This document shows, piece after piece, positions 27,501-30,500 of a DNA stretch of 64,000 nt. The stretch is from Haliclystus octoradiatus (lineage: Eukaryota; Cnidaria; Staurozoa; Stauromedusae; Haliclystidae). Positions within the stretch are counted from its first letter, which is position 1. Each line of letters begins with the position of its first letter. The notes beneath the pieces are model-generated. The model was not told where the DNA came from. It saw only the letters and a program-made list of their open reading frames with translations, and made no database searches. The stretch covers positions 7,426,650 to 7,490,649 of the forward strand of contig OU744448.1 of the NCBI GenBank assembly GCA_916610825.1. Direction: 5' to 3'. Both the position numbers and the translations under genes were made by a program.

Positions 27501-30500
27501 GAATAAAAAAAGACATATACAAGAACGTATGTAATATAAGTGGTACAATAGTTCATCAGCAAATTAATGCAGTAATTGTTATTTAAATTTTAGGTTTACC
27601 TTGAAACAGCGTAGCCTATAATTGTCTTTTATTCTGTGTTTTTATTTTGCATGTTACACGACTCATTTACCACGCTTTTCAATAAATAAAAACATCTTGA
27701 GCTAAATGTCGTTTTGTAAATCGTAGCCATTATTGAGATATTTATTGGATTGTTATCAAAAGGTTATAAATTCTGTATTTTATCACAGATCAAACTTTTT
27801 AAGCTTGCGGTTTTTCCCGGTTTTCGGAGCCATGTTTTACCCTAGGATTTCATGCACGCTCTTTCGACCAATCAGATCGCAGAAAACCTTCGTGATATTT
27901 TAGAATTAAATTTGAAATGCAAATCTACGAACTGTGTAGATGTAATAATTAGTCCCATTGAAAAAATAAAAAAGTCAAACAGTCATATGGACACTGTGAC
28001 TATTTGATGGTTATTGGTAATAGTCTAGAATTATTTACCATCATAATCTGAACTAATTAGAGTCAAAAAATATTTTCAAATGTAGGCTGGAACTAGTTTC
28101 AGGCCTTTTTCATTTCTATCTGAGTTTTAACGATAAGATCCTGGAACAAATTGCATATTTTGCGGTGCATATTTTAAAATATTTGTTGACTCTTGTTTGT
28201 TCAGAATATATTAGTGAAAAAAATTTATAATATTTCAAATAGCAGCAGACAAGTACATGTTTCTGGCCATTAGCCTTCATCAGTACTGCTCAGTGAGCGA
28301 ATAAGGGACTGACTTTGGTATATACCTAAGTCAAGATGAGTTATCAATGTGGTGAAAAAATTCATCACATGAAAAAAACATCTGTGCCATACCAGAGTGC
28401 TCAAACTACCGAAGTAGTGGGCAATGCATATCGCAAATAGTAGGCCTATAGACACATCCCAAGTCAACATAATATAATATTTCAAATATTAATTTGATAG
28501 TAAAAGGGTCCGTATGATTGTTTGGTTTTTTCTATTGGCCTATATACTACTGCACAGATTGTAAATTTGCATTTGAAACAATTACAATCAATATAATGGT
28601 TTCTTCTATGACCATGTTTGTGATTGGGATTTTATTGCAAATAATAAATTTGTGGTTTGATGTTTAGAGTATCACCAGAAAGCGTTGATGCTACTTAAAC
28701 ATAACTTTTATTGATTGCAGGCCATGCAAAGTTACGGAGGGATGAAATTGTTAGTGCTTCACCTATTTATTTTACATCTACGCCACCAACTCAAACGGAC
28801 CCTAGTTTGCCATCACCTCTCTGCTTGAAACATATTCTGGATATGGTTAGTATATTGAATTATGTATATTAGCACTATGAATCTTGGATATACTGAATTT
28901 CTACTGACAACCTACTGGAAATATACTGGAATACAATAGGGCACTGAAGCCATCTTTTTAATTTACCAGACACATAAATCTAGATTTTTCTCATTCTGCT
29001 GAAAAACTACTCAAACACACCTTAATATTGGAAAGCTACTATTCAGTAAGGTTTTAGTATGTTTTCAATAGGTTTTCAGATTTTCAAAGTTCCTAGTGTA
29101 GGTATATCCAATACACTGCAGTTGAGGTTTTTGGTTGCTCAGATTATCATATATTATATCATAGCTCATTAGAATGTATCGAATGTTATCCTGTTTAAGC
29201 TGGCTGTTTTCAGTGAATGTTCATGTCTGATTACTCAAACATTTAATTCAAGTCCTGAAATGTAAAACACAGTAAAAACAAAATGTCATCACAGGCAAAG
29301 CCACAGTTTTATTTTTAACTGTTTATAATAAAAATGTTTTTAATAATTTAATAATAACAAGATATTATAATAGAACCAAGATAGTCTAACTCAGATTTGT
29401 GTTTTTGAGAGTTTTAAACAGGCCATAATATTATCTTACCTTTGTGAAAATCAACCAAATAAATTGTATTTAACATCCTCAAGCATTGAATAATTCAAAT
29501 TTAAAAACAACGTTTTTGTCCGACATCAGTAACATCCTCAAAAGTCTATCTTTGTTGACCAAATATCGATCATTTCCAAACATTTTGATCTGTTTTGCCA
29601 CGGCAAAATCACTGAGAATTGGCCACAAAAGCTATTTTAAGATCATCTCGTTTCGATGCGAAAAAATTACCGGGGCTCAGATTATCAAACCAGCAAACTT
29701 TCTTTCTTGTGAAAAGTAAAACATTTTTTCGCGCGGTTCAGATGGAATCATGAAACCCGGTTCTGTTTGATTTTTTGACACGCACGACATTTCAAACGTA
29801 TTGAATATCAGCAATGTTTAATAAATGTTTTTCTTTTCACAAGAAAGTAAGTTTGCTTGTTTGATAATCTGAGCCCCGGTAATTTTTTCGCATCGAAACG
29901 AGATGATCTTAAAATAGCTTTTGTGGCCAATTCTCAGTGATTTTGCCGTGGCAAAACAGATCAAAATGTTTGGAAATGATCGATATTTGGTCAACAAAGA
30001 TAGACTTTTGAGGATGTTATTGATGTCGGACAAAGACATCGTTTTTAAATTTGAATTATTCAATGCTTGAGGATGTTAAATACAATTTATTTGGTTGATT
30101 TTCACAAAGGTAAGATAATATTATGGCCTGTTTAAAACTCTCAAAAACACAAATCTGAGTTGGACTATCTTGGTTCTATTATAATATCTTGATAATAATA
30201 AAGCAACACAGTTGTATAAAATTTAATCAGTGAATAAATTAAAATTCTCGTCATTAATTTGTTTGTTCTACAATGTTATGTTGTTGTTAATAAACATCAC
30301 GCATGATGCTTTAATACTGTAGATATAAACTTAGCACAAAGCCAGCGTCGGAGCCTCATGCCTCATTAAAACTGACGTATGTTCCGTGTCTTGTGTCAAT
30401 TTTAACACAAACTGACTGGTTCTGGACAGCATATTTATATTTTGACTCTAATTTTAACATTTTTACACTACGCAATAATATGAATGATATGATATAATGA

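Follow-up and report, generated by a model that had tools for sequence, protein, structure and literature searches.

A 231-bp insert in the window, a stretch of 64,000 nucleotides from the Haliclystus octoradiatus genome, is probably a dead single copy, truncated at its 5' end, of a retrozyme with a 261-nt unit; metazoan non-LTR retrozymes are a known kind of element. The copy itself is an ordinary member of that kind; its siblings elsewhere in the genome are of more than ordinary interest. What is probably new is that these siblings record the point at which copying started, an RNA that spanned the ribozyme site and likely ribozyme cleavage in the germ line. According to section 9 of PMC7761336, metazoan retrozymes have no conserved motif from which their helper retrotransposon can be deduced. 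The siblings described here define an exact junction that every helper would have to create, preserve what is likely a genomic trace of ribozyme cleavage in the germ line and supply a candidate helper in open-frame tandem arrays, which makes the helper question directly testable.

The limits of the insert and of the perfect 16-bp direct repeats on both sides of it, as given in a preliminary description of this DNA, hold (Table 1). The repeat, TATAATATTTCAAATA, is the only direct repeat listed around the insert; there is no LTR, and no inverted repeat at the insert ends occurs among the repeats listed around it. The element accounts for 224 bp of the insert and filler for 7 bp, with unit positions 7-48 missing. 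This copy has ~95% identity to the 261-bp unit, carries a 6-nt insertion and is more diverged than its siblings; with one ribozyme and a truncated unit, it should therefore not release unit-length RNA or a circle alone. Exon-like plus-strand frames before the insert (26803-27069; also 12170-12577) match ClC-3/ClC-5 chains, and those after it (30828-30962, 31698-31811) continue the match in order. The insert is antisense to this ClC-type gene, so that the ribozyme strand should be absent from the host transcript. Decayed Penelope-like fragments also lie on the plus strand inside the gene, with an endonuclease end at 22551-22724 and a reverse transcriptase at 24521-24947. The latter had been pointed out in the preliminary description as a nearby Penelope-like reverse transcriptase; it is present and decayed, but it is a relic only, and the relevant candidates are open-frame tandem arrays elsewhere.

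Table 1. Features of the insert and its flanks (positions within the window)
Feature	Position	Strand	Basis or remark
Target-site duplication, copy beside the element's 3' end	28226..28241	.	Perfect 16-bp direct repeat
Minimal type I hammerhead motif	28241..28290	-	Core and three stems read from sequence
Inserted DNA, 231 bp	28242..28472	-	Antisense within ClC-3/4/5-type exchanger gene, between exons
TGCTGC, usual end point of insertions, proposed reverse-transcription start	28242..28247	-	Six nt past the cut
5'-truncated retrozyme copy (probable)	28242..28465	-	Unit positions 49-261, continued beyond the cut by TGCTGC (positions 1-6)
Predicted self-cleavage site, after C17 at 28248	28247..28248	-	Motif; 16 genomic 5' ends at the corresponding base
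Filler at the truncated 5' end, unmatched by the unit	28466..28472	-	7 bp; 5 bp if one substitution is allowed
Target-site duplication, copy beside the element's 5' end	28473..28488	.	Perfect 16-bp direct repeat

A minus-strand hammerhead with a complete core, adjoining the first repeat, can indeed be read in the window as was originally proposed. The core elements on the minus strand are CTGATGA (28283-28277), GAAA (28263-28260) and a GTC that ends at 28248. Stem I (28284-28290/28241-28247) has 7 bp with one G-U and has its last base inside the duplication, stem II (28273-28275/28265-28267) has 3 bp above an A.A mismatch, and stem III (28258-28260/28249-28251) has 3 bp and a 6-nt loop. The open-ended stem I makes the hammerhead type I rather than type III. 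The motif had also been said to end exactly at the repeat: stem I does reach the duplication, whereas the element ends 6 nt past the cut and not at the cut. Rfam gave 0 matches in the whole window at the gathering score and, with relaxed thresholds, no hammerhead at E<=5 in 28000-28700 or at E<=10 in 28225-28320. The covariance-model check suggested earlier thus returned no hammerhead at gathering or relaxed thresholds, and membership therefore rests on the motif, the copies and covariation. This miss is not decisive because a second class of hammerheads in the same genome, with a covarying stem I, is also unlisted by Rfam. The A.A mismatch at the base of stem II had been called unusual, which is not borne out, as 27 of 45 second-class hammerheads gathered with no stem filter also lack a pair there; the equivalent position is unpaired in 14 of 19 in a hand-picked second-class set. 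The predicted whole-circle fold (-63.2 kcal/mol; z -1.1 versus dinucleotide shuffles) is not special. The minimum-energy fold predicted for the strand (-13.3) differs from the monomeric hammerhead (-11.2); when two strands are folded together, a dimeric hammerhead (-30.8) lies near the minimum (-33.8), and the stem III strand ACAUGUACUUGU is nearly self-complementary.

The ribozyme core GGCTAATGGCCAGAAACATGTACTTGTCTGC has 806 matches at <=3 mismatches (394 + 412) in the 262-Mb genome compared to 0 for the reversed pattern, and so occurs more often than by chance. A DNA search of the genome, also suggested earlier, yields many copies that include tandem 261-bp units, with at least 97 scored matches on nine contigs, many at 261-bp spacing. 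Exact core searches of prokaryote and viral contigs returned 0 matches. The unit has a GC content of 0.41 and is non-coding (the longest ATG frames on the circle are 44 aa on the plus strand and 53 aa on the minus strand). Twenty loci (L009-L028) were picked from matches of the DNA search, and 60 of 67 loci built from the exact core matches listed on contigs C1 and C2 were added (L029-L088); among the matches listed, two of these 67 were already in the sample and five were left out. The exact core pattern used for the C1 and C2 loci includes TGC past the cut, which biases the sample to ends at least 3 nt past the cut. Two loci (L018, L019) were dropped as duplicates, which left 84 instances, and three without the usual 3' end were set aside, which left 81. 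Sampled insertions contain up to ~7 tandem 261-bp units, compared to the truncated monomer in the window. The family looks recently active because 11 of the 84 instances are 100% identical to the reference unit in every piece.

Copying appears to have begun at a preferred point beyond the ribozyme cut. Among the 81 insertions, the match to the unit continues past the cut for 9 nt in 60, for 8 nt in 8 and for 7 nt in 3, and the last nucleotides of these 7-9 nt matches are shared with the target. At the 3' end, TGCTGC and then TA from the target is the common pattern, and 71 of 81 insertions read TGCTGCTA. Matches in the other ten stop 1, 3, 4, 5, 5, 5, 6, 10, 13 and 13 nt past the cut; the six that end 1-5 nt past it run against a +6 rule. 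The choice of most loci depended on a pattern that reaches 3 nt past the cut, so the whole genome was tested with unbiased patterns. These gave 205 exact cases of the core end followed by TGCTGC and eight A/T bases, 154 unit-unit junctions, and 0 exact cases genome-wide of a core that ends at the cut and is followed by eight A/T bases (reversed-pattern control, 3). Reverse transcription that started at the 3' end of a cut monomer would give this absent class, which implies a template unbroken at the ribozyme site, with the ribozyme itself uncut or re-ligated: either a circle or a transcript left uncut there. Three of the 84 instances end elsewhere, at unit positions 66, 67 and 195. Loci L044 and L045 each contain one copy with a 3' end at unit positions 66-67, which could mark a second start site; an end near position 66 has 2 exact matches genome-wide, both on C6 and with identical following letters.

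Insertions are found at (TA)n, at (ATT)n and in AT-rich DNA. The 20 nt of 3' flank are 92% AT compared to a 67% background from the same loci, and all 20 are A or T in 38 of 81 insertions versus 15 of 854 background cases. Target duplications were judged only outside microsatellites: in 47 of 81 insertions the flanking repeat is a simple repeat that is indistinguishable from a microsatellite, and no flanking repeat of at least 8 bp was found for 19 of 81. Duplications in complex sequence lie directly at both ends in L047, L055 and L071 (11 bp each), L075 (12 bp) and L067 (17 bp with 1 mismatch); that in the window is 16 bp, with the 7 bp of filler on one side.

The 5' starts of the 81 insertions spread over the entire unit, as for 5'-truncated retrotransposons. 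Seven of them coincide exactly with position 1, the first base beyond the cut (binomial p 3e-8 versus 1/261), and an eighth near-cut start (L043) lies one base before position 1. Genome-wide, the unit begins at position 1 directly after six A/T bases in 16 cases, versus 1 and 1 at two control positions, for which the 16-mers were unmatched in conservation to the position-1 word. Judged from these genomic copies, the 5' ends at the cut likely represent run-off at a ribozyme-made 5' end and would be a footprint of self-cleavage, probably in the germ line. Insertions that start at the cut have lengths of 266-267 nt (L017, L028, L039, L040), 424 nt (L025), 522 nt (L024), 528 nt (L048) and 1051 nt (L043, with one base more). 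Starts at position 7 occur 9 times genome-wide, with AT microhomology with the target as an alternative reading. For at least some copies, an end at position 1 indicates a template of linear, ribozyme-cut oligomers, so a circle need not be invoked. It is possible, although we consider it unlikely, that the template was a partly cut linear multimer and never a circle, with the ribozyme merely trimming it. The 16 insertions that begin exactly at the cut agree with this, and most cut-start insertions have the lengths that oligomers would show if their 5' end had been cut and a site further downstream had not. In contrast, the seven full units of L009, identical to the reference, fit a circle, as do the 6 of 81 insertions that start at unit position 6-7, five of which are one turn long (260-261 nt), although AT microhomology is an alternative for these.

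Units within an array are more alike than units of different arrays. In 28 multi-unit arrays, compared over pieces >120 nt only, mean divergence is 0.66% within versus 2.4% between arrays. Of 476 array-column cells at the 18 columns that vary among arrays, 13 are discordant, compared to a mean of 91 and a minimum of 69 in 200 shuffles, and 11 of the 13 fall in three arrays (L025, L044, L047). That array units mostly share one template fits repeated copying of one circle, or of an already uniform multimer; homogeneous arrays could also stem from transcripts of already homogeneous source arrays or from homogenisation at the DNA level.

The helper of the retrozyme is most likely a Penelope-like element (PLE), as a candidate partner. 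A tandem PLE array at G000:C8:5690923-5722659 has 13 head-to-tail hits at ~2629-bp spacing, each listed with an open 829-aa frame. At the one end of this array that was read (L109), RVT_1 is matched at E 3e-13 and GIY-YIG at 22.5 bits, under the cut-off of 22.6; the array stops ~90 nt into the next frame copy and is followed by (ATT)n, and no canonical hammerhead core was found there. In a second PLE family (L110), a hammerhead-like core was read by eye at the ORF start; it is unlisted by Rfam. No RNA motif common to the retrozyme and the fetched PLE stretches was found. Penelope-like copies also occur as head-to-head inverted pairs (L098, L099, L103, L104, L108). In vitro, a lizard (anole) PLE cuts preferentially at ATT and starts internally rather than at the RNA 3' end, according to the parts of PMC11167929 used here, and likeness to this ATT cut and internal start makes a PLE the leading candidate helper. 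AT-rich targets are weak evidence for PLEs because other enzymes also prefer such sites.

Mobilisation by a LINE-type (non-LTR) reverse transcriptase instead of a PLE is more doubtful. Truncated 5' ends and 11-17 bp duplications fit target-primed reverse transcription by such an enzyme too, and some LINE-type reverse transcriptases leave short AT repeats at their 3' ends. However, the end runs directly into the target with no repeat tail in the window, L055, L067 and L071, and the same AT repeat flanks both sides in L009, L028, L029, L036 and L060. A start downstream of an uncut ribozyme, inside a repeated unit, moreover resembles the internal start of PLEs (PMC11167929, in part). Satellite DNA spread by unequal exchange, with the ribozyme as a relic, would account for tandem repeats of nearly identical units but is very improbable given the many dispersed single copies, which favour one 3' end and show target duplications and 5' truncation. 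Least probable of all is a DNA transposon or Helitron-like element with a chance hammerhead-like motif, which would be short, non-coding and repeated as observed, but which is opposed by the variable 5' ends, the preferred 3' end, the 11-17 bp duplications and the lack of an end inverted repeat among those listed. The initial proposal of a small, non-autonomous, ribozyme-bearing retroelement is instead supported by siblings in tandem, duplicated target sites, a 3' end that hardly varies and 5' truncation.

Other hammerheads lie near the sampled loci and in the window; one variant among them, the second class, has 563 matches at <=3 mismatches. At G000:C2:13912555-13916568 (L115, L116), five minus-strand and seven plus-strand units of 352 bp lie head to head; two units that were read are identical at 351 of 352 positions and have a longest ATG frame of 49 aa. 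In L116 the plus array continues for ~40 nt beyond the cut before it meets TA-rich DNA (one end, counted by eye). Head-to-head arrays of this type suggest that both strands of one site may have been primed. A reading of the second class as Penelope pseudo-LTR tails (prompted by L057, where the end of a PLE frame is found 436 nt upstream) was dropped, and a second retrozyme class is the better reading because of the 352-bp tandem arrays. An earlier alignment of 19 second-class hammerheads was hand-picked from a list in which stem II pairs were pre-required, with L057 (stem I mismatch) left out; for this set, 28 cells changed on both sides (0 of 500 shuffles as high), and further pair types did not exceed the shuffled level (446 of 500). 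The class was therefore recounted with no stem filter, which gave 86 hits, 52 of them distinct and 45 with the 3' motif. All four pairs of stem I are complete in 34 of these 45 and incomplete in 11, compared to a shuffled mean of 17.6 and a maximum of 26 in 1000 shuffles.

A hairpin, GCUC...GAGC, follows the start site in 22 aligned second-class tails (22 of 23 distinct trimmed tails, with L062 left out) and has modest inner-pair covariation. Its outer four pairs were required by the search pattern, so only the inner pairs test it; two of five measures are little better than shuffled (both-side changes, 230/500; further pair types, 85/500). A recognition hairpin shared by the 261-bp retrozyme (unit A) and second-class tails found no support in two tests: among local alignments of 6 modules the best was equalled by 10/500 shuffles and the others by 79-358/500, and a covariance model searched at E<=10 hits the second class and misses the retrozyme. 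Apart from TTGAGCACT, which each contains twice at a distance of 67 and 63 nt, units A (261) and B (352) are unlike; a 9-mer repeated in both units arose in 0 of 3000 shuffled pairs, with TTGAGCACT having been picked post hoc. The window itself contains a palindromic head-to-head second-class pair at 50392-50613, with pieces 86-92% identical to unit B and a tail that ends in TA-rich DNA. Two further second-class hammerheads lie head to head at 42550-42572 (minus) and 44044-44066 (plus), with a 60/120-bp minisatellite (42959-43566) between them.

The best explanation of the observations as a whole is, in our judgement, likely to be the following cycle of a metazoan non-LTR retrozyme with a 261-nt unit. 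Tandem copies would be transcribed, and the hammerhead would cut the RNA into units, probably as a dimer through its near-palindromic stem III, in agreement with the footprint at 5' ends. The ends would be re-ligated to a circle, or some junctions would be left uncut. A retrotransposon enzyme, most likely from a PLE, would nick AT-rich DNA, and the nick would prime reverse transcription at the favoured position 6 nt beyond an uncut ribozyme site, where the junction is observed. Copying would proceed for one or several turns of the unit and would either stop variably or run off at a ribozyme-cut 5' end, both end types being observed. The product would be inserted with a target duplication of ~11-17 bp, as seen at a few sites outside microsatellites. 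A stricter proposal, which we advance tentatively and regard as doubtful, is that animal retrozymes transpose only from junction-spanning RNA, normally a closed circle, with the PLE starting past the re-joined ribozyme and circling round, and with the doubled TTGAGCACT as its landing site. If true, this would imply that the ribozyme is needed to make and re-close the template, not to give the template an end.

No earlier report of the +6 junction was recognised in the paper listings of a mainly open-access literature search; the AT/ATT-repeat targets, the +6 junction and 5' ends that coincide with the cut, as described here, were not found in the parts of PMC7229834 used here or in section 9 and other passages of PMC7761336. 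The retrozyme resembles CarSV, as described in part of PMC9695139, in being a small RNA with multimeric DNA copies in microsatellite-like sequences, which occur in some cultivars, but CarSV is a plant RNA and its DNA copies are tied to a pararetrovirus. Plant LTR retrozymes are likewise hammerhead-bearing and non-autonomous, with circular RNA reported there (PMC4918200, in part) and conjectured here. They differ in having a type III hammerhead, LTRs, PBS and PPT, and 4-bp duplications (sections of PMC7229834 and PMC7761336), whereas the window insert has a type I hammerhead, no LTR and a 16-bp duplication. Hammerhead-bearing PLEs share a hammerhead, a start that is internal and downstream of the ribozyme, ATT/AT-rich targets and tandem arrays with the retrozyme, whose unit, unlike theirs, has no reverse transcriptase, GIY-YIG endonuclease or long frame and whose start would lie 6 nt past the cut; for the anole PLE, the corresponding distances into the ORF are 26 bp for the cut and 111-118 bp for the start (PMC11167929, in part). 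Metazoan non-LTR retrozymes, in the parts of PMC7229834 used here, are the closest match: they share a type I hammerhead, non-coding tandem units (261 bp here, within 170-400), a GC content of 41% as found here, target duplications >4 bp and PLEs in the same genome. Within this group, the axolotl HHR_Amex2 (same source) is similar in its weak stem II with a basal mismatch and its short stem III; the mismatch is A.A here versus U.U in the axolotl, and stem III differs. HHR_Amex2, with its short stem III, cleaves better in dimeric constructs (PMC7229834, in part).
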